NCBI GenBank assembly: GCA_013377005.1
Contig: JACABE010000009.1
Coordinates: 1-47,152, forward strand
DNA length: 47,152 nt
Reading direction: 5' to 3'
Origin: Bacteroidota bacterium
GTDB lineage: Bacteria > Bacteroidota > Bacteroidia > Bacteroidales > JACABE01
A program made the translations under genes and the position numbers. The notes below the pieces were generated by a model, which searched no databases, was not told the DNA's origin, and worked only from the letters and a program-made list of their open reading frames with translations. Of this stretch, positions 34,844-47,152 are shown in pieces (the first letter of the stretch is position 1; the number at the start of each line of letters is the position of its first letter).

Positions 34844-36157
34844 ATGAATAACATACTTATTTTTACTCCTAAAATATGCAATCGTATTAAATATACATTT
34901 AAACTTTATTTTCAGGAGTTGTTAGGTGTTGATATTACTTTTACAACAAATTCTGATGAATTTATAGATTATCAATATATTAAAATAAATTATTCAGAGC
35001 TAGATTTTGGAGATGAGCTCTTTTTTGGTGCATCAAATTTATTATTTGAAACGAATATTCGCGAACAGGATTTAAAATTCATTGATTTCGAAAAACACAC
35101 AGCTTTTTTTATTATTTCAAATAAAAAATCATGTTTACCTTTTGACCCATTTGCAGCTGGATTTTATCTTGTAAGTCGGTATGAAGAGTATTTGCCTTAT
35201 ATAAAAGATCAATATGGAAGATTTAGTGCTGAGCAAAGTATAGCCTATAAACATTACTTCTTAAAAAAACCTTTGATTAATATTTGGGCATTGAAAATTG
35301 CAGCTATCATCAAAAATAAATATCCCGATTTTAAGATATGCAATAATAAATTTCAATTTATTCCCACTTTAGATATCGATTGTGCTTATGCTTATAAATT
35401 AAAAGGAATTATACGTACAATTGGCGGATATTTAAAATCTGTTAGAAATCTTGATTTTAAAGATATTATTGAAAGAACCAAAGTTATAAGTGGTTTGGGT
35501 AAAGACCATTTTGACACTTATGACTTTCAATATGAAATGCAGAAAAAGTACAAACTACATCCTATTTATTTTGTACTTTTTGCTGAATATGGCGATTTCG
35601 ACAAAAATATTCCTTTAAATAATCGTAAATTTCACTCCTTAATAAAAATGTTGGGAGATGAGGCAGAAGTTGGCATTCATCCGTCTTATGCTTCGAACGA
35701 TGATATTAGAGTTTTAAAACAAGAAATTGAAAAACTTTCAAAAGTATTAAATCGTCAAATTTCAAAGAGCCGACAGCACTTTCTGAAATTAAATTTACCC
35801 CATACTTATCGTAACTTAATAGATTTAGATATTACTGATGACTACACAATGGGATATGCTTCCGAAATAGGATTTCGGGCAAGCATTTGCAACGCTTTCT
35901 ATTTCTATGATTTAGAATTAGATATAGAAACTAATCTTAAAATTCATCCTTTTGCTTTTATGGAAGGTACATTAAGAGATTATCTAAATATACATTCAGA
36001 TAAAGCATTGAACTATATAAAACCATTGATTGATGAAGTAAAAACTGTAAACGGAACATTTATCTGCCTTTGGCACAACGAATCACTAAGCAATCAACGT
36101 CGTTGGGTTGGTTGGAAGGAAGTGTATGAGGAAACAATTAAATATGCTGTTAAATAA
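34844..36157 (+). CDS. Polysaccharide deacetylase-like protein
   Basis: A 437-residue protein with no signal peptide. It resembles the Bacteroidota family with an N-terminal DUF7033-like domain (1 to about 165) and a NodB-type fold after it. Motif-like positions are TLDIDCAYAYK (about 174-184), where the Asp pair could match the NodB metal site, and GIHPSYASND with His near 279. The usual second His of HxxxH is replaced within HPSYA, so catalysis is not certain. It abuts a FemAB/GNAT-like gene (TAA directly followed by ATG), so the two likely act together in cell-envelope glycan or lipid modification. Confidence 0.75.
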   Translation: MNNILIFTPKICNRIKYTFKLYFQELLGVDITFTTNSDEFIDYQYIKINYSELDFGDELFFGASNLLFETNIREQDLKFIDFEKHTAFFIISNKKSCLPFDPFAAGFYLVSRYEEYLPYIKDQYGRFSAEQSIAYKHYFLKKPLINIWALKIAAIIKNKYPDFKICNNKFQFIPTLDIDCAYAYKLKGIIRTIGGYLKSVRNLDFKDIIERTKVISGLGKDHFDTYDFQYEMQKKYKLHPIYFVLFAEYGDFDKNIPLNNRKFHSLIKMLGDEAEVGIHPSYASNDDIRVLKQEIEKLSKVLNRQISKSRQHFLKLNLPHTYRNLIDLDITDDYTMGYASEIGFRASICNAFYFYDLELDIETNLKIHPFAFMEGTLRDYLNIHSDKALNYIKPLIDEVKTVNGTFICLWHNESLSNQRRWVGWKEVYEETIKYAVK

Positions 36158-37078
36158 ATGATACATTACCTACAACATAATCATATTAACAAAGAAAAAT
36201 GGGATAAGTGTATTGATACATCTATCAATAGAGTTGCTTATGTTTATAGTTGGTATTTAGATGCTGTTTGTAAAAACTGGTGTGCATTAGTCTTAGATGA
36301 TTACGAAGCAGTTTTTCCTATGGCCTTAAATTCTAGGTTTACAATGTATTATCTTTATCAACCTTTTTTTACAAGATATTTTGGCATTTTTTCAAAGACT
36401 AAAATAACAGAAACTCTTGTCAATGTTTTTTTTGATGCCATTAGTAATGAGATTAAATTTATTGAAATTAATATTCACGAAACCAATAAATTTGAACGGA
36501 AAGATTTTCAGAAGAAAGAACGATATTTTCAATTTTTAAATATTGACAAACCTTATGATAAAATATATCAGGACTATAAAGGCGATGCAAAACGAAACCT
36601 AAAAAAAGCAGAAAAAAATAAACTAAAAATTATTGAAAATCTTGCACCTCAAAAAGTAGTGGAATTATTTAAACACAATAAAGGCAATCAATTAAAAGAC
36701 CTCCATTCTAAAGATTATTTTTCATTACAAAGTATTATGAATGCTGCCAATACAAATAATTATGGAATATCTTTAGGTGTTACCAATACAAATAACGATT
36801 TAATTGCAGCAGGTTTTTTTATACTGATTAAAAACACTATTTTATTTTTGAAAGGCAGTGCAAATGATGAAGGTAAGTCACAAGGAGCAATGTATTTAAT
36901 GATAGATTCGCTACTTAAAAACTATGCTCAGAAAATACATTATTTTGATTTTGGAGGTTCTTCAATTGAAAGTATAGCAAGTTTTAATAATAACTTTGGT
37001 GCAGAAAATTGTGTATATTTGCAAGTGAAAAAAAATAATTTACCTAATATTATAAAGCAAATAAGTGGAAAAAAATAA
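36158..37078 (+). CDS. FemAB/GNAT-like acyl- or aminoacyltransferase
   Basis: A 306-residue protein with a FemAB/GNAT-like C-terminal half: KGDAKRNLKKAEKNKLKI (about 141-158) corresponds to the R-N-x-K-K substrate-binding segment, and ISLGVTNTNNDLIAAGFFI and IHYFDFGGSSIESIASFNNNFGA match the final strands and the conserved FGG region. Family members transfer amino acids or acyl groups to cell-wall or surface molecules. The start codon directly follows the stop of the deacetylase-like gene, so coupling is likely. The substrate is unknown. Confidence 0.75.
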   Translation: MIHYLQHNHINKEKWDKCIDTSINRVAYVYSWYLDAVCKNWCALVLDDYEAVFPMALNSRFTMYYLYQPFFTRYFGIFSKTKITETLVNVFFDAISNEIKFIEINIHETNKFERKDFQKKERYFQFLNIDKPYDKIYQDYKGDAKRNLKKAEKNKLKIIENLAPQKVVELFKHNKGNQLKDLHSKDYFSLQSIMNAANTNNYGISLGVTNTNNDLIAAGFFILIKNTILFLKGSANDEGKSQGAMYLMIDSLLKNYAQKIHYFDFGGSSIESIASFNNNFGAENCVYLQVKKNNLPNIIKQISGKK

Positions 37079-39231: not shown

Positions 39232-39885
39232 TTATTGGTTAAAAACAAATTGCAATATATTTGCACCCATACGTAAAGCTTTTGTACGGATTGCTTCTGA
39301 ATCTTTATGCACATCCTGATCTTCCCATCCATCGCCTAAATCGCATTCGTAGCTGTAGAAACAAACCAATCTTCCATTATAAAACAAACCAAATCCTTGA
39401 GGTCGTTTGCCATCATGCTCATGAATTTTGGGTAAGCCATTGGGATAATCAAATTTCTGATGAAAGATAGGATGACTAAAAGGTAATTCTACAAAATCTA
39501 ATTCAGGAAATACTTTCTTCATTTGCGGTCTGATGAACTTGTCTAAACCATAATTATCATCAATATGCAAAAATCCACCGCCTTTTAAATAATTTCTTAA
39601 ATTATCAACATCTCTATCGGAGAAAACAACATTTCCATGCCCGGTCATGTGAACAAAAGGATAATTAAAAAGCTCAGCACTTCCAACATCTACTGTTGCA
39701 TATTCTGGGTTAATATTGGTACCAATGTTTTGATTGGCAAACTGAATAAGGTTAGTAAGTGAAGTAGGATTGGCATACCAATCGCCTCCTCCATTATATT
39801 TAAGCAAAGCAATCTGATAGGTTGGTGGTGTAAAAGAGCTGAATGCTCCTATTAGTATCAAATATAAAAAAAATCTTTTTATCAT
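39232..39885 (-). CDS. DUF4159 domain protein, exported
   Basis: A 217-residue protein with a signal peptide (1 to about 18) and a single DUF4159 domain. Recognisable segments are LLKYNGGGDWYANPTSL, FVHMTGHGNVVFS, LKGGGFLHIDDNYGLDKF and DLGDGWEDQDVHKD. The domain resembles a glutamine-amidotransferase fold, but its activity is not known. The start overlaps the rsmE stop by four bases (ATGA), so it is probably translationally coupled to rsmE. Confidence 0.9.
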   Translation of the reverse strand: MIKRFFLYLILIGAFSSFTPPTYQIALLKYNGGGDWYANPTSLTNLIQFANQNIGTNINPEYATVDVGSAELFNYPFVHMTGHGNVVFSDRDVDNLRNYLKGGGFLHIDDNYGLDKFIRPQMKKVFPELDFVELPFSHPIFHQKFDYPNGLPKIHEHDGKRPQGFGLFYNGRLVCFYSYECDLGDGWEDQDVHKDSEAIRTKALRMGANILQFVFNQ

Positions 39886-40586
39886 AATTCATTCAATAAA
39901 TTAATGGTGTGGCAGGCAACAATTCCTGCGGTTTCGGTGCGTAAACGCGAATTGCCCAAACTTACAGGCAAGTAGTTGTTTTCAATAGCTTTTTTTATTT
40001 CAGCAATACTAAAGTCACCTTCAGGACCTATTAATATCAGTGCATTTTCACCTTTTTTATAAGCAGATTGTAATGTTATTTTTTCATCATCTTCACAATG
40101 GGCAATATATTTTTTGCAGTCAAAACTTAAGTTGAGAAATTGATTAAACTTAATGGCTTCGTTTAAAATAGGATGATAGGCCTTTAAAGATTGCTTAATG
40201 GCAGAAGTAATTATTTTTTGCAAACGCTCAGGTTTAATAATGTTGCGTTCAGAATGTTCGCTGAAAACGGGAGTGATTTCGTCGATGCCAATCTCAGTAG
40301 CTTTTTCTAAGAACCATTCAAAACGGTCGATATTTTTAGTAGGAGCAATGGCAATGTGCAAATAAAAATTCTTTTTGCCGAAATCAGGAATTGTTTCAAT
40401 AATTTCCGCAATACACTCCTTTGGATCAGCACTCAACAATTGAGCTTTGTATAAATTTCCCTTGCCATCGGTCAGATGAATTTGACTGCCTTCTTTCAAT
40501 CGCAATACTCTTACACAATGGGTGGATTCTTCTTTATCAAGTTTATAAGTATCAGAATTAATGTCTGGTGTATAGAATAATTGCAT
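39882..40586 (-). CDS. rsmE: 16S rRNA (uracil-1498-N3)-methyltransferase
   Basis: A 234-residue SPOUT enzyme with an N-terminal PUA-like domain (HCVRVLRLKEGSQIHLTDGKG) and a C-terminal SAM-binding trefoil knot (ALILIGPEGDFSIAEI, LGNSRLRTETAGIVA). It methylates N3 of U1498 in 16S rRNA. Length is typical. It lies 55 bases downstream of the large NRPS gene on the same strand. A -7 box candidate (CAAATCTA at 40591-40598) is too close to the ATG to be trusted, so transcription from the NRPS side is possible. Confidence 0.95.
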   Translation of the reverse strand: MQLFYTPDINSDTYKLDKEESTHCVRVLRLKEGSQIHLTDGKGNLYKAQLLSADPKECIAEIIETIPDFGKKNFYLHIAIAPTKNIDRFEWFLEKATEIGIDEITPVFSEHSERNIIKPERLQKIITSAIKQSLKAYHPILNEAIKFNQFLNLSFDCKKYIAHCEDDEKITLQSAYKKGENALILIGPEGDFSIAEIKKAIENNYLPVSLGNSRLRTETAGIVACHTINLLNEL

Positions 40587-40641
40587 ACTACAAATCTACA
40601 CAAAGTTTTTAAAATAATGGTGATATTGATGAAATTTTTAT

Positions 40642-43600
40642 TTAAACAGGATTGGCAGGTGCGCCCATAAATGTAGTATTGGCTGTAAGTGTTTCTCCCT
40701 TCATTAAAACAGAAAGGTTATCAAGCTTAGATCCATCTTCCATTTTAGAATCATACAATACCACTGACATCCCTCCTACGCTGCATTCATTTCCTATATC
40801 AACAAACGACATTTTCATCACCCTGTCTTCAAACAAATGTGTTTGTATGGTGCAGTTATCGTTCAATGCTGAATAGTCACCTATTTTTACAAGGTCAAAC
40901 TCGGTAATCTGTGTAGTATAAATACAACATCTTTTGCCAATTTTACTTCCCAACAACCAAAGTGGAAATTTAATAAAAGGTGTGCCTGTAAGGACATTCA
41001 TAAAGAAAAGGACACCAAAATTTTCATACAAGCCTGTTACAAGTTCACTTCTCCATACGAAACCACTCCATAGTGGTTTATTTGTAGGCCGGTAACGACC
41101 GATTACAATCCATTTAAATAATGCAAGGATAATAAATCCAACAATACTTGCTCCGATATATAGGAGTGGGAATATAAACATCAATGCTAAAAGGTCAAAA
41201 TCAACTTGTAAATAACTTGTAATATTTGTAATCATAGATGCCATTACTATAAATAGAGTTGCAGGAAGAGTTACCCTGAAAAACTCTATAAAATACCTTA
41301 AGGCGAAAAGTGTTCTGCTTGGCTTATACGTTCGCGAAATTGAAAAATCCTGATTAATATCACGTCTGGGTAAGAATACAGCCGGTGAACCAAACCATGA
41401 AGTTCCGTCTACTGCCGGAAGGTCTTCAGTTTTCATATTTGAAAGTACCCCAACCAATACATCATTGCCCAACACTGTCCCCGGACTGATTACAGCACTA
41501 TTTCCAACAAATGTTCTGTTCCCGATATATGTTTTTGCTATTGTAATATAACCGTTTCTTACATGCGAAGCTCCAACAGAAACCGAATCGGCCAGAAAAC
41601 ATTCATCGCCTGCAACCAGTAAATCAGGTGATATAAATTCTACCGTTGATATTTCGGATCGCTTGCCGATTTTTACCCCTAATAGTTTAAACCAGAATTG
41701 AAGATAAAGAGTTGTGTAAAGTGTTCCAATTACTTGTAAACTCAACTTCATAAGTTGGTCAAAAAACCATTTTCTGTAATAAAATAGACTGCTTATCGGA
41801 TACTTTCCTTCCTTTATATTACCCAACATTAACCATTTTAACAATGCAATAATCAATGATAGCATCAGCACAAAAGAAACAGCAACTACTATTGTTAAAG
41901 CCAGAAACTGATAGTCATCGCGTGAATAATCAACATGTGTAATAAGCATCATCCCAGGGAAATAGGCAAGCATTGTAATCAAAGGAAAAACAAAAACACC
42001 TAACAGATAAAGTGTAAAGTGAGATTCTCTCCACAGTTTTATTGTATCAAGTTTAGGATTAATGCCGATTTTTTCTGCTGGTGAACCTTGCCAGTTTTCA
42101 TTTGCAGGAATAGATTTTCCGGAAACCAATAAGGAGAGATCCTCAAGTGAAGAATTTTTCTCCATCTTTGTATTTTCTGAAATACAACAACGCGTTCCCA
42201 CAAAACATTCATCTTCAATTTCAATAGAGCCTATATGTAAGTAACCATCTTTGATAACATATCCTTTAATGTGGGTATCTGTACAAATGCTCACATTACT
42301 TCCGATAGTAAGTAAATCAAACGCAGATGCAGTATGCGTATTGATATAGGTGTTTTTCCCGATCTTTGCACCAAGCAACCTATAAAAGTTTGTAATAATA
42401 GGTGTTCCTGTAAAATAACTTGCGGGAGTGATTCCAATAACTTTATCTACAATCCAAAACCTAAAATAATAAAGACTCCATAGTTTATATTTGCCTGCTT
42501 TTATTTTACCAATTACCAACCATTTAAAAATAATCCCAAACAATGTAAGTGCTGGTAATAGTAAGAAATAAGTTAATAACATTATTAATAACGAATCTAC
42601 TACACCATAATCAGCATGATAATAATATGAATAAACAAAAAATGGCCCTAACCATTCTATACCAAATAAGAATGACAGAAATATCATTGACACTCCCTGA
42701 CTAAACCAACAACTGTAATAGCTTAAACTGGAAGGTTTGTAAAAGTCATGAGGTTCCTCTTCTTTTTTGCTTTGAAGTTTCAATTTAGCTTCTAAATCAT
42801 CAGTGAGGTCTTGTAAGATAGGATGTTTGTAAATATCAATAACAGACATACTCTCAAACAATTTATTTTTTCGTAAATCAGATACGACAGTTGCCGCCAA
42901 CAATGAATGCCCACCAAGATCATTAAAAAAGTTATCATTCATCGAAATATCATCCCGCTTGAAATACTTTTTAAGTACTTCAAAGAATTCTTTTTCAAGA
43001 GCTGTGACAGGTAAAACACATTCTTTTTCAATGTCAGATAGCATTGGTGTTATAGGTTGAGGAAGCTTACTTCTGTCAATTTTTGAACTCGATGTCATAG
43101 GAAGAGCGTCCAGTTCATCCAATGTTGAAGGCAACATATAATAAGGAAGTTTTGATCTTAACAAAGCTGAAATTTCTTCGCGATTCAATGTTTCACCTTC
43201 TTTGACAACCACATAAGAAGCCAATTGCTGAGTTGTTTTATCAAGATTTACAGCCGTTGCTTTTACTCCTTTGCACTGCAAAATCAATCCTTCAATTTCT
43301 GAAAGTTCAACTCTGAAACCTCTTACTTTCACTTGAGCATCTGATCTGCCAAGATATATAATTTCACCGGTATTATTATATTTGGCAACATCTCCGGTTT
43401 TATAAAATCGCAAAGGGTAATCAGTAAACTTGTCTGTTTCAATAAACTTTTCTGCTGTCAAATCGGGTCTGTTAAGATATCCTCGTGCAACACATTCTCC
43501 CCCGATGTAGATTTCACCTTCTTCCCCGACTTCAACGGCATCTAATTGCTCATTCAGTAGCATTACCAGATACTGTGGCATCGGATGTCCTATTGTAACA

Positions 43601-44598
43601 ATCTGCCCAGATTCCAGTACTTTATAAGTAGCAATAACAGCTGCCTCAGTAGGACCATAAGTATTATAAACTTTCCTTCCTTCACAGCACCATCGATGAG
43701 CTAAATCTGAAGGACAGACTTCTCCTCCGAAAATAAGGATTTTAAGACTTGGAATATCATCCTCTACCATTGACAGCAATGTAGGTGCACATGAAAGAAA
43801 ACTAATATTCAAATCATTTAAAATACTCGAAAATTGACTGCCCGAACGCATAATATCGAATGTTCCCACAACTATAGTTGCTCCTACAGAAAATGGCACC
43901 CAAATTTCTTCTACTGATGCATCAAATGAAACAGAAAATCCCTGAAGAGCTCTGTCAGTCGATTTTATTGGATAAATTTCAAGTGCAGAATGAATATAAG
44001 TAATTACATTGCGATGTTCAAGCAATACACCCTTCGGTTTGCCGGATGTGCCGGAAGTATAAATGATATAACAAAGATTTTCAGACTTTAATTGCGTTAT
44101 CTCAACACGTGTTTTGGGCAAATTTCCGAGAATTGATTCTCTTTTATCAATATTAAAAATCTTTTTGTCGATAAGTTCATCTGCAATTCTATTCAGTATT
44201 TCATCAGAAGAAATCAGTAACAATGCCTCTGAATCTTCCAACACAAAATTAACCCTGTCTCCCGGTATCTCAGGATCAAGGGGAATATAGGCACCTCCTG
44301 CTTTTAAAACACCCAGCATTGCAATATAAACATAAGCTGTCCGAGGTAACATAATGGCAACTTTCTGCTCAGGCCCTACTCCCATTTTTATAAGATAATG
44401 AGCCAACTGATTCGCTTCTTGTTCTATTTCGCGATAAGTGTATTTTTTCTTATTATCTTCAATGGCAAGATTTTCAGGAAAGGAATCTGCTGATTGTTCA
44501 AAAAGCTCATGAAGCAGTTTTGATGTTTTAATGTTACTATAGGTACTTAAGCCTGTCCACTTATTAAAATTCGATTGAATATCTGATTTTTGCAGCAT
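40642..44598 (-). CDS. Pls/PosA-family membrane non-ribosomal peptide synthetase
   Basis: A 1318-residue protein with the layout of epsilon-poly-lysine synthetase (Pls) and relatives. The adenylation domain (about 25-515) has TSGTSGKPKG (181-190), FDAS with Asp226 (225-228), YGPTE (314-318), TGD (401-403) and catalytic Lys506. The carrier domain has phosphopantetheine Ser565 in LGGHSL. Six transmembrane segments follow in three pairs (about 635-698, 862-925, 1108-1172). Each pair is followed by a tandem C-terminal module with hexapeptide-like beta-helix repeats (about 708-836, 937-1075, 1178-1316). There is no thioesterase or standard condensation domain. Family members make homopolymers or single-amino-acid peptides at the membrane. 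The amino acid cannot be read reliably here. A radical SAM gene diverges upstream. Confidence 0.9.
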   Translation of the reverse strand: MLQKSDIQSNFNKWTGLSTYSNIKTSKLLHELFEQSADSFPENLAIEDNKKKYTYREIEQEANQLAHYLIKMGVGPEQKVAIMLPRTAYVYIAMLGVLKAGGAYIPLDPEIPGDRVNFVLEDSEALLLISSDEILNRIADELIDKKIFNIDKRESILGNLPKTRVEITQLKSENLCYIIYTSGTSGKPKGVLLEHRNVITYIHSALEIYPIKSTDRALQGFSVSFDASVEEIWVPFSVGATIVVGTFDIMRSGSQFSSILNDLNISFLSCAPTLLSMVEDDIPSLKILIFGGEVCPSDLAHRWCCEGRKVYNTYGPTEAAVIATYKVLESGQIVTIGHPMPQYLVMLLNEQLDAVEVGEEGEIYIGGECVARGYLNRPDLTAEKFIETDKFTDYPLRFYKTGDVAKYNNTGEIIYLGRSDAQVKVRGFRVELSEIEGLILQCKGVKATAVNLDKTTQQLASYVVVKEGETLNREEISALLRSKLPYYMLPSTLDELDALPMTSSSKIDRSKLPQPITPMLSDIEKECVLPVTALEKEFFEVLKKYFKRDDISMNDNFFNDLGGHSLLAATVVSDLRKNKLFESMSVIDIYKHPILQDLTDDLEAKLKLQSKKEEEPHDFYKPSSLSYYSCWFSQGVSMIFLSFLFGIEWLGPFFVYSYYYHADYGVVDSLLIMLLTYFLLLPALTLFGIIFKWLVIGKIKAGKYKLWSLYYFRFWIVDKVIGITPASYFTGTPIITNFYRLLGAKIGKNTYINTHTASAFDLLTIGSNVSICTDTHIKGYVIKDGYLHIGSIEIEDECFVGTRCCISENTKMEKNSSLEDLSLLVSGKSIPANENWQGSPAEKIGINPKLDTIKLWRESHFTLYLLGVFVFPLITMLAYFPGMMLITHVDYSRDDYQFLALTIVVAVSFVLMLSLIIALLKWLMLGNIKEGKYPISSLFYYRKWFFDQLMKLSLQVIGTLYTTLYLQFWFKLLGVKIGKRSEISTVEFISPDLLVAGDECFLADSVSVGASHVRNGYITIAKTYIGNRTFVGNSAVISPGTVLGNDVLVGVLSNMKTEDLPAVDGTSWFGSPAVFLPRRDINQDFSISRTYKPSRTLFALRYFIEFFRVTLPATLFIVMASMITNITSYLQVDFDLLALMFIFPLLYIGASIVGFIILALFKWIVIGRYRPTNKPLWSGFVWRSELVTGLYENFGVLFFMNVLTGTPFIKFPLWLLGSKIGKRCCIYTTQITEFDLVKIGDYSALNDNCTIQTHLFEDRVMKMSFVDIGNECSVGGMSVVLYDSKMEDGSKLDNLSVLMKGETLTANTTFMGAPANPV

Positions 44599-44655
44599 CT
44601 TTAGTTTACTAAATTAAGATTATGTGTTTTTTGAAAAGTAATTGATATTACTTTA

Positions 44656-44678
44656 CAATATTAAATTATGTAATATTG
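44656..44678. promoter_or_regulatory. Inverted repeat, possible operator
   Basis: CAATATTA and TAATATTG are exact reverse complements separated by 7 bases (15-base centre spacing). The site lies 58 bases upstream of the NRPS start. It could bind a regulator, but it is made of A/T almost throughout. Confidence 0.3.
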
Positions 44679-44859
44679 AATATGGAGATTTCTATATGAT
44701 AAAAAGTTTTAATTCATTTAAAACAAAGGTAATAAAAACTATAATAAAAGTTGAATCTATTATCCATTTTTAATATTTTTTATGTAATTAAAATTTACTT
44801 ATTTGAAATATTTATCGCTTATAAATAACAAAGTTTATACCATTTAATAAATTTTATCC

Positions 44860-44867
44860 TACTTTTG
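44860..44867 (+). promoter_or_regulatory. -7 promoter element of the radical SAM gene
   Basis: TACTTTTG matches TAnnTTTG and ends 23 bases before the GTG start at 44891, which supports that start and a leader of about 15 bases. Confidence 0.45.
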
Positions 44868-44890
44868 TCAAAAACAATTATTCAAAAACT

Positions 44891-46747
44891 GTGCTGCAAG
44901 CTGATTTATTACTTATTACTCCTCCTTTTATTCAGTTAAATACCCCTTATCCTGCTACTGCATGTCTCAAAGGCTTTTTGCAAGAAAAAGGATTTAAAGT
45001 AGCTCAACTCGATTTGAGTTTAGCCTGCATATTGGAAATGCTTTCTGCTGATGGATTACGAAAACTGTTTGATTTTGCAAAGAATATAAACTGTTCTGCC
45101 AATGCAAAAAAAATAATACAGTTTAAAGATGAATACATTCGGCATATTGATGCAGTGATTACTTTTTTGCAAAGCAAAGACACTACTTATGCTTATGCTA
45201 TCAACAATGGAGCTTTGCCCGAAGCTAAAAGGTTCAACATCCAGCAGGATTTAGAATGGCATTTTGGTGCTGATGGCATTCAGGATAAAGCCAGATTCTT
45301 AGCCACCTTGTTTATTGAAGATATCGGCGATTTTATTACAGAATGTGTTGACAATCGCTTTGGATTTAGTCGCTATGCGGAACAAATCGGTTTAAATGCC
45401 ATCAGTTATCAAACTATATTAGATGAACTTAAAGCGGATACGCCTATTACAAAAATTATGTGCGATTTGTTGGATAATTCTATCAAACAACATCAACCGA
45501 AAGTAATTGGTTTTACAATTCCATTTCCGGGGAATCTTTTAATGGCATTGAAATCAGCTGAATTTATCAAGAAAAATTATCCGCACATTCCAATTGTTAT
45601 GGGGGGTGGTTTTGTTAATACAGAATTGCGTCAGCTCAACGAGCCAAAATTGTTTGAATTGATCGATTACGTTTGTTTGGACGACGGAGAACTTCCTTTA
45701 TTAAAACTATTAAATCATTTAATTAAAGGAGAAGAAGTGTTAGCAAGAACTTTTAAATTGGAACAAGACAGCGTGGTTTATAACAACAATGCTGAAGAAA
45801 ATGATTTTGCGCATAAAGATTGCGGAACGCCCGATTATGATGGCTTGCCTTTGGCAGATTATATTTCGGTAAACGAAACCACCAATCCCATGCATAATTT
45901 ATGGAGCAATGGACGTTGGAACAAAATGGCATTGGCACATGGTTGTTACTGGCATCGTTGTTCGTTTTGCGATGTTTCTTTAGATTATATAAAACGTTAC
46001 AGCAGTTCATCTGCTACAGTTTTATGCGATAGGATAGAGGCCATTATCAAACAAACCGGACAGCGTGGTTTTCACTTTGTGGACGAAGCCGCATCGCCGG
46101 CATTGCTAAGGAAATTAGCAGAAGAAATTATTCATCGCAAACTTAGCTTAACATGGTGGACCAATATTCGTTTTGAATCTGCATTTACAACTGAGCTATG
46201 CGAATTGTTAGCAGCATCGGGTTGTGTGGCAGTTTCGGGTGGCTTGGAAGTTGCCTCTGATCGCTTATTGCAGAAAATGGAGAAAGGTGTAAGTATAGAA
46301 CAGGTAACAATGGTTACATCTGCTTTTCAACAATCAGGTATTATGATTCATGCTTATCTGATGTATGGTTTTCCTACACAAACAGCTCAGGAAACCATAG
46401 ATTCATTGGAAATTGTGCGTCAGTTGTTCGAACACAAATTAATACAAAGTGCTTTTTGGCATCGCTTTGCCATGACGGTTCACAGTCCTGTTGGTATCAA
46501 TCCCGAAAAATATGGTGTAGAACGCATACCTCATCCCGAAAATGCTTTTGCAGAAAACGGATGCCAACATATTGATAAAACAGGCTGCAATCATGAGAAA
46601 TATGGTTTGGGCTTAACCAAGGCTTTGTATAATTTTATGCATGATAATGGATTTGATTATCATTTGCAAGATTGGTTCGATTTCAAAATTCCGCCAACTA
46701 CAATGGCACCCAATTATATTAAAAGATTTTTAAAGAAAAAGAAATAA
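44891..46747 (+). CDS. B12-binding-domain radical SAM protein
   Basis: A 618-residue protein starting at GTG, chosen because a -7 box lies just upstream. The N-terminal segment LLLITPPFIQLNTPYPATACLKGFLQ is typical of B12-binding radical SAM enzymes. A Rossmann-like region (about 195-290: PKVIGFTIPFP, PIVMGGGF, CLDDGELPL) follows. The Fe-S cluster motif is Cys352-x4-Cys357-x2-Cys360 (GCYWHRCSFC), one residue longer than the usual CX3CX2C. The TIM-barrel body contains GFHFVDEAAS and VSGGLEVASDRLLQKMEKG. The reaction is unknown. It is transcribed divergently from the Pls/PosA-type NRPS; a functional link is inference only. Confidence 0.9.
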   Translation: MLQADLLLITPPFIQLNTPYPATACLKGFLQEKGFKVAQLDLSLACILEMLSADGLRKLFDFAKNINCSANAKKIIQFKDEYIRHIDAVITFLQSKDTTYAYAINNGALPEAKRFNIQQDLEWHFGADGIQDKARFLATLFIEDIGDFITECVDNRFGFSRYAEQIGLNAISYQTILDELKADTPITKIMCDLLDNSIKQHQPKVIGFTIPFPGNLLMALKSAEFIKKNYPHIPIVMGGGFVNTELRQLNEPKLFELIDYVCLDDGELPLLKLLNHLIKGEEVLARTFKLEQDSVVYNNNAEENDFAHKDCGTPDYDGLPLADYISVNETTNPMHNLWSNGRWNKMALAHGCYWHRCSFCDVSLDYIKRYSSSSATVLCDRIEAIIKQTGQRGFHFVDEAASPALLRKLAEEIIHRKLSLTWWTNIRFESAFTTELCELLAASGCVAVSGGLEVASDRLLQKMEKGVSIEQVTMVTSAFQQSGIMIHAYLMYGFPTQTAQETIDSLEIVRQLFEHKLIQSAFWHRFAMTVHSPVGINPEKYGVERIPHPENAFAENGCQHIDKTGCNHEKYGLGLTKALYNFMHDNGFDYHLQDWFDFKIPPTTMAPNYIKRFLKKKK

Positions 46748-46751
46748 AGAA

Positions 46752-47152
46752 AGATGAAACATCCATGACAAATAAATTTTGACACACAAGAGTTATTATG
46801 TGGAAATAATAGCTAGAAGATCGAAGTTGAGGTTATTGAGCAAAATCGAAATGAAAAATAGAACGCTGATGACGCAGATTCCTAAAGGAAAACACAGATA
46901 AAACGGATTTAAAATCTGTGTTAATCCGCGTTTACGGAACGTATCCGGCATATCCGCGTTCCAAGTTTTAACTTCCTTAATGTTTTGCAACATTTTTTTA
47001 AAACCTGAATATATAAAAATAATATAAACAGATGAAGCATCCATGACAAATAATTTTTGACACACAAGAGAATGATTATAATGTAGCAATAATAGCCAGA
47101 AGATCGAAGTTGAGGTTATTGAGCAAAATCGAAATGAAAAATAGAACGCTGA
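46752..47152 (+). repeat. Noncoding direct repeat, second copy cut by the window edge
   Basis: Copy 1 starts at 46752 (AGATGAAACATCCATGACAA) and copy 2 at 47030 (AGATGAAGCATCCATGACAA), 278 bases apart. Both continue through the block GACACACAAGAG and the block AGATCGAAGTTGAGG, and reach GAACGCTGA at 46861 and 47144. Only copy 1 is seen past that point; it holds hairpin arms AACACAGAT/ATCTGTGTT and terminal GAACGC...GCGTTC. Similar 'aatccgcgtt' intergenic repeats are known in Bacteroidota. No reliable gene is seen in it. Confidence 0.8.

Follow-up and report, generated by a model that had tools for sequence, protein, structure and literature searches.

What does the large membrane-associated synthetase encoded at this locus make, and does it work alone or together with the gene beside it? 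The locus lies in a window of 47,152 bases, the whole stretch of DNA analysed here (bases 1-47152 of a 106,204-base contig from a 3.69-Mb draft genome). It carries on the reverse strand a gene for a 1318-residue protein (40642..44598) and on the forward strand a gene for a 618-residue B12-binding radical S-adenosylmethionine (SAM) protein (44891..46747). The original prediction had described the larger product as a synthetase of the Pls/PosA type, which makes amino acid homopolymers, and had raised a link to the radical SAM gene diverging from it across 292 bases; both open reading frames and the gap (44599-44890) are indeed as described. We consider it probable, judging from sequence, that the larger gene encodes a stand-alone, single-gene Pls/PosA homopolymer synthetase making epsilon-poly-L-lysine at the inner membrane. 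The protein adds a member to an established enzyme family; it probably works alone, with epsilon-poly-L-lysine as its probable product.

The family assignment is carried by TIGR02353, the "Pls/PosA family" model, which matches residues 634-1315 over model positions 3-695 of 695 and scores 614.5 bits against a curated cut-off of 423.1, far above chance; the predicted family membership is borne out by this match. Pfam places AMP-binding at residues 33-375, the AMP-binding C-terminal domain at 434-506 and PP-binding at 547-600. At an E-value of 0.001, its matches are to adenylation, adenylation C-terminal, carrier and hexapeptide/beta-helix models; neither a condensation nor a thioesterase domain is among them. 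All parts of the protein lie on the reverse strand. The adenylation domain (residues 1-515, 43054..44598; PF00501, PF13193) also exceeds the TIGR01733 cut-off (400.1 versus 317.4 bits) and is followed by the carrier region (residues 516-620, 42739..43053; PF00550). The remainder, a predicted membrane-embedded polymerising region (residues 621-1318, 40645..42738; TIGR02353 and structure model), comprises three times two long helices and a left-handed beta helix. The core residues are intact, including K506, S565 (the conserved serine of the carrier, within LGGHSLL) and both the NTYGPTE and the TGD stretch. Activation of the carrier seems possible, since one PF01648 phosphopantetheinyl-transferase-domain protein, of 224 residues, is encoded elsewhere in the genome.

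The substrate is best approached through the adenylation pocket. The predicted FDASVEE stretch is present (residues 225-231, 43906..43926) and, aligned to PosA (8G97) and Pls (7WEW), supplies the pocket residues D226, A227 and E230, the last of which aligns with the PosA glutamate holding the side-chain amine. Pocket positions were picked by eye after GrsA numbering, with a check against the alignments to PosA and Pls, and the ten positions read DAESIGTVI plus K506. The pocket of the Streptomyces epsilon-polylysine synthetase 7WEW, read off a printed alignment, is DAESIGTVV; the two agree at eight of the nine readable positions and differ by a single conservative change. Passages of the PosA study (PMC10522769) state that in PosA an Asp binds the alpha-amine and a Glu the side-chain amine, and propose that the second pocket position sets chain length, with Ala in lysine enzymes, Met in PosA and Phe in diaminopropionate enzymes. 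Asp226, Ala227 and Glu230 therefore point to L-lysine, the likely monomer on this sequence evidence. The original prediction had considered the pocket compatible with a basic amino acid; the comparison agrees and reaches further, to a lysine-type pocket.

A Pls/PosA-type enzyme could also use another diamino acid, such as ornithine, beta-lysine or diaminobutyrate. When the pocket segment was used as a query among solved chains, the top two groups were PosA (8G95/8G97) and the epsilon-polylysine synthetase (7WEW), and identity was slightly higher to PosA, the ornithine enzyme, than to Pls (41.2% versus 38.6%); PosA itself, according to part of the published account, binds lysine too. We nevertheless regard another diamino acid as unlikely. 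The window does not match the PosA code DMEHNGTVSK given in PMC10522769, having Ala, Ser, Ile and Ile at positions 2, 4, 5 and 9 where PosA has Met, His, Asn and Ser, and it is unlike both the beta-lysine code DGESISVVNK quoted in the same passages and the DFE-type pockets of other relatives, whereas it shares eight of nine readable positions with 7WEW. Nor does a diaminobutyrate transaminase or aspartate kinase stand beside the window synthetase, unlike at a Streptomyces plasmid locus (L125), where a DFE-type synthetase lies in a row with both genes and a two-component system lies upstream.

Three reported systems frame this comparison. Pls of Streptomyces albulus (7WEW) shares family, domain layout and the eight pocket positions with the window synthetase, but is 38.6% identical in the pocket segment and differs in its host, the window's being a member of Bacteroidota as judged from named relatives. 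PosA of Acinetobacter baumannii (8G95-8G98), which makes delta-poly-L-ornithine, shares family, layout and the amine-binding Asp and Glu. Synthetases of diaminobutyrate or diaminopropionate polymers, with L125 as a putative example, have the same family and layout but a DFE pocket and a separate group in the tree.

Several observations weigh against a lysine polymer synthetase of the Pls kind. The pocket segment is closer to PosA than to Pls, as given above. In our tree 7WEW, used as a piece of 153 residues, sits on a long branch with no supported place; because of this and of the 38.6% identity, it is the pocket code and the family model that tie the protein to characterised Pls. Finally, in Streptomyces and Corynebacterium the pls gene shares an operon with a gene for a pldII-type peptidase, as passages of PMC8117764 report for these actinobacterial systems, but no such peptidase was seen among the Pfam-annotated neighbouring genes of the window.

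The C-terminal half is where polymerisation would take place. A hydropathy scan gives six peaks there, in three pairs starting at residues 636, 672, 868, 899, 1106 and 1142; two weaker peaks inside the adenylation domain (80 and 232) are taken for core strands. A structure model of the last 698 residues, built from 42 aligned sequences (mean predicted local distance difference test score 90.8, predicted template modelling score 0.90), shows a unit of two long helices, shorter helices and a beta helix three times over, in agreement with the scan, and predicts a pseudo-threefold of beta helices. Open reading frame, Pfam, hydropathy and model thus agree on the adenylation-carrier-six-helix-three-module layout that had been claimed. 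The Foldseek and VIA-align matches listed are all chains of the hexapeptide or gamma-carbonic-anhydrase-like type; the best VIA match (maltose O-acetyltransferase 3IGJ and others; Z 8.2, root-mean-square deviation 2.7 over 142 residues, mainly module 1) has a score for which the program cautions that the likeness may reflect a common arrangement only. By sequence, hexapeptide proteins were the only solved structures found for this region up to an E-value of 0.1, and the likeness of the modules to hexapeptide acyltransferases agrees with the published PosA models as given in parts of PMC10522769, which also state that structural information on the C-terminal region is lacking. A search of the open-access literature for the synthetase together with cryo-electron microscopy found no paper. 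Whereas hexapeptide acyltransferases share their fold with single C-terminal modules, the window protein has three copies fused in one chain, six membrane helices and, presumably, an aminoacyl carrier as donor.

Conservation is distributed unevenly over the three modules. Among 88 sequences (L061, L075 and L128 excluded), 17 charged residues are conserved in at least 97%, with one in module 1, three in module 2 and 13 in module 3. Many of these 13 cluster around QTHLFEDRVMK (residues 1252-1262, 40813..40845), a stretch confined to module 3 in the ten sequences shown at the homologous position, altered slightly in L131 and L132 and more strongly in L129. We propose from this pattern that one polymerisation site lies around QTHLFEDRVMK in the third module. 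According to a published sentence (PMC4668381) none of the three modules is dispensable, in keeping with a single site formed within a pseudo-trimer. The uneven conservation bears on the way in which isopeptide bonds are formed by a membrane beta-helix protein.

Under the mechanism that we favour, S565 would first be pantetheinylated, plausibly by the Sfp-length transferase encoded elsewhere in the genome. The adenylation domain would activate L-lysine with ATP, the lysine would be loaded on S565, and the membrane-embedded pseudo-threefold beta-helix region would link lysines through isopeptide bonds, yielding epsilon-poly-L-lysine at the inner membrane, from where the polymer might be released.

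To look for genes working with the synthetase, we clustered 287 open reading frames of at least 90 residues around 30 synthetase loci (two of which, L103 and L118, overlap in one genome). Besides the synthetase and an ABC transporter family (four loci), no family occurred in at least three of the 30 loci, and the flanks differ among loci; no recurrent partner gene thus emerged among the loci examined. That no exporter or degrading peptidase recurs beside the synthetase in these loci, with that ABC transporter family as the exception, would suit a reading in which the lysine chains are added to a lipid, a cell-envelope polymer or a protein instead of forming a free polymer, and an acyltransferase-like fold could accept such acceptors. 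The family products reported in parts of PMC10522769, PMC8117764 and PMC4668381 are free isopeptide homopolymers, however, and the patchy presence of the synthetase argues against a core envelope role, so that we judge transfer to another acceptor improbable.

The remaining question is whether the radical SAM gene belongs to the system. Its product exceeds the Pfam cut-offs for B12-binding (PF02310; 35.6 versus 32.1 bits) and Radical_SAM (PF04055; 40.2 versus 29.5 bits) and falls below every NCBIfam cut-off listed, its nearest resemblance being to P-methyltransferase radical SAM families and to those acting on ribosomally synthesised and post-translationally modified peptides (RiPPs). For the RiPP-maturation radical SAM C-methyltransferase model TIGR03975, it reaches 106.5 of the 281.85 bits needed. 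Such a resemblance, together with the divergent adjacency, would suit a single pathway in which the radical SAM enzyme methylates or otherwise modifies the monomer or polymer.

The comparison within the window's own family speaks against such a pathway. Among the five genomes searched (G000, the window's, and G001-G004), the synthetase scores above the cut-off in G000, G001 and G004, and the radical SAM gene occurs in G000, G001, G002 (two copies) and G003 but was not found in G004; the two genes thus each occur without the other. Downstream of the synthetase and on its strand, the window carries rsmE (39882..40586; NF008702, 346.1 versus 269 bits) and a DUF4159 gene (39232-39885; Pfam). G001 has the same arrangement and matches the window on either side of its own synthetase, whereas in both copies found in the congener G002 DUF4159, rsmE and the radical SAM gene follow in order and the synthetase is absent. 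Aligned by blastn with these copies (L114 and L115), the window loses homology at 40616 and regains it at 44849; a segment of 4232 bases containing the synthetase (40617..44848) is replaced in both by 77 bases. The radical SAM proteins of the two copies are 95% and 85% identical to the window's, and the copies may have arisen by duplication or belong to two strains combined in the draft genome.

Identities between the window and G001 are of similar size across the site (synthetase 79.7%, radical SAM 77.2%, RsmE 81.5%, DUF4159 87.1%). In the radical SAM tree the window groups with one empty G002 copy (support 99/99) and then with the other (82/92), with G001 and G003 outside. Two histories would explain this pattern: the common ancestor of G000 and G001 had the synthetase, which was later lost more than once, or there was exchange between species at the site.

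Beyond the family, the synteny comparison that the original prediction had itself named points the same way. Of the 25 closest named synthetase loci, 12 have 8 kb of upstream sequence, 21 have at least 1.8 kb and four (L037, L038, L059, L079) have too little, and the radical SAM gene lies upstream of the synthetase in none of the 21. Adjacency was thus seen in the window's genome and one congener (G001) but in none of these 21 relatives. In a sample of 198 genomes of the order, the radical SAM gene occurs in 40, of which 36 lack a full-length synthetase. It is present in four of six synthetase genomes and in 36 of the other 192 (Fisher p 0.016); without the window's genome the first count is three of five (p 0.054). 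Both tests ignore kinship. A further point for a shared pathway is that in G068 (L062) a synthetase of 41% identity and a radical SAM homologue of 51% identity lie about 4 kb apart, with other genes between the two. In G097 and G187, however, the synthetase and the radical SAM gene are on separate contigs, and the latter also occurs in the synthetase-free genomes G198, G084 and G172, which belong to the same genera as G097, G187 and G068. Raw co-occurrence leans towards a link, but is better explained by the radical SAM gene being inherited within families. On synteny, empty sites and co-occurrence, we rejected the partnership and consider a joint pathway very improbable. The two genes most probably came to be neighbours by local chance, and the radical SAM gene would stand outside the polymer pathway as a genomic bystander.

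Around the radical SAM gene itself, 18 loci yielded as recurrent partners an Imm33-type protein (four loci), RsmE (four, the boundaries of L112 leaving out the window's own rsmE) and one further family (three), and no other. The cluster motif of its product is CX4CX2C (HGCYWxxCxFCD) in 31 of 32 radical SAM loci (L112-L116 and L133-L159, with eight genomes represented twice; no match in L147). The usual radical SAM spacing is CX3CX2C.

How widespread is the synthetase? A full-length relative of at least 40% identity was found in six of the 198 genomes of the order sample, with a fragment in a seventh, and in a phylum sample six of 395 genomes, the window's own included, lay above the family cut-off. 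Among 72,556 plasmid records, 42 carry similar genes, all below 60% identity. Patchily distributed in both samples, and present or absent at one fixed site, the synthetase counts as an accessory gene. The closest named relatives belong to Bacteroidales and other Bacteroidota. Pocket codes were tabulated for 84 sequences (the window, 78 loci of a named-genome scan and five other genomes; the partial L059 and L079 excluded and the frameshifted L037 dropped afterwards). D-A-E-S occupies the first four positions in 70 and DFE occurs in 12, the region being absent in one and frameshifted in one.

In a FastTree tree of 85 rows (excluding L061 and L075 with internal stops, L128 with a broken frame, and the partial L094, L095 and L038), the window falls in a Bacteroidales-type clade of 25 rows (support 100), nearest to G001, L017 and G097, and the 15 DFE rows form a single group. 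The synthetase encoded by G004, a genome of the window's family, lies outside that clade beside a Sericytochromatia sequence, and a set of ten rows elsewhere comprises nine Bacteroidota (Pedobacter, Hymenobacter, Taibaiella and others) and one Fibrobacterota. Because G004 and the ten-row set fall apart from the 25-row clade, the tree suggests separate acquisitions in Bacteroidota, some deep branches being weak. A bolder proposal, which we put forward tentatively and with more doubt than belief, combines two parts. Throughout the Pls/PosA family, a single live site would be formed by a third-module catalytic set (Q1252, H1254, E1257, D1258, R1259, K1262), with the other two modules as scaffold; and Bacteroidota would have taken up a one-gene lysine polymer system at least three separate times, gained and lost at a fixed chromosomal site.

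According to parts of PMC8117764 and PMC10522769, confirmed lysine polymer enzymes come from actinobacteria and fungi and the ornithine enzyme from Acinetobacter. Our searches of the open-access literature showed no title about a polylysine producer from Bacteroidota among those listed (15 of 6,258 matches in one search, too loose to count as evidence, and 3 of 3 in another), and the available text of a Pedobacter natural-products paper (PMC12181424) has no occurrence of five lysine polymer terms. A lysine-type stand-alone enzyme from Bacteroidota, if confirmed, would widen the source of such polymers and offer a simple one-gene system for expression. Epsilon-polylysine is an antimicrobial polymer, and the product of the window synthetase may have that role as well.

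Some further observations concern relatives and neighbouring genes. A related synthetase in G068 (L146:312-5552) has 1515 residues, about 200 of them extra at the N-terminus and without a Pfam match, and a phosphopantetheinyl-transferase gene lies directly 3' of it. Just past the window on contig C89, a small protein with an Imm33 domain (L112:3381-3716; 94.0 versus 25.4 bits) is encoded downstream of the radical SAM gene, as it is in the congener loci L113, L115 and L116. Two nearby frames (window 46796-47089 and L112:3077-3406) share long identical stretches (KRGLTQIL, SVLFFISILLNNLNFDLLAII), which suggests that some 300 bases are repeated downstream of the radical SAM gene, the second copy containing a run of N. 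Farther away in the window, at 34844-37078, a DUF7033 gene with weak likeness to the VimE deacetylase (151.9 bits against a cut-off of 440) is directly followed by a gene with weak FemAB likeness (38.1 versus 260.35 bits), the two possibly forming an envelope-sugar pair.

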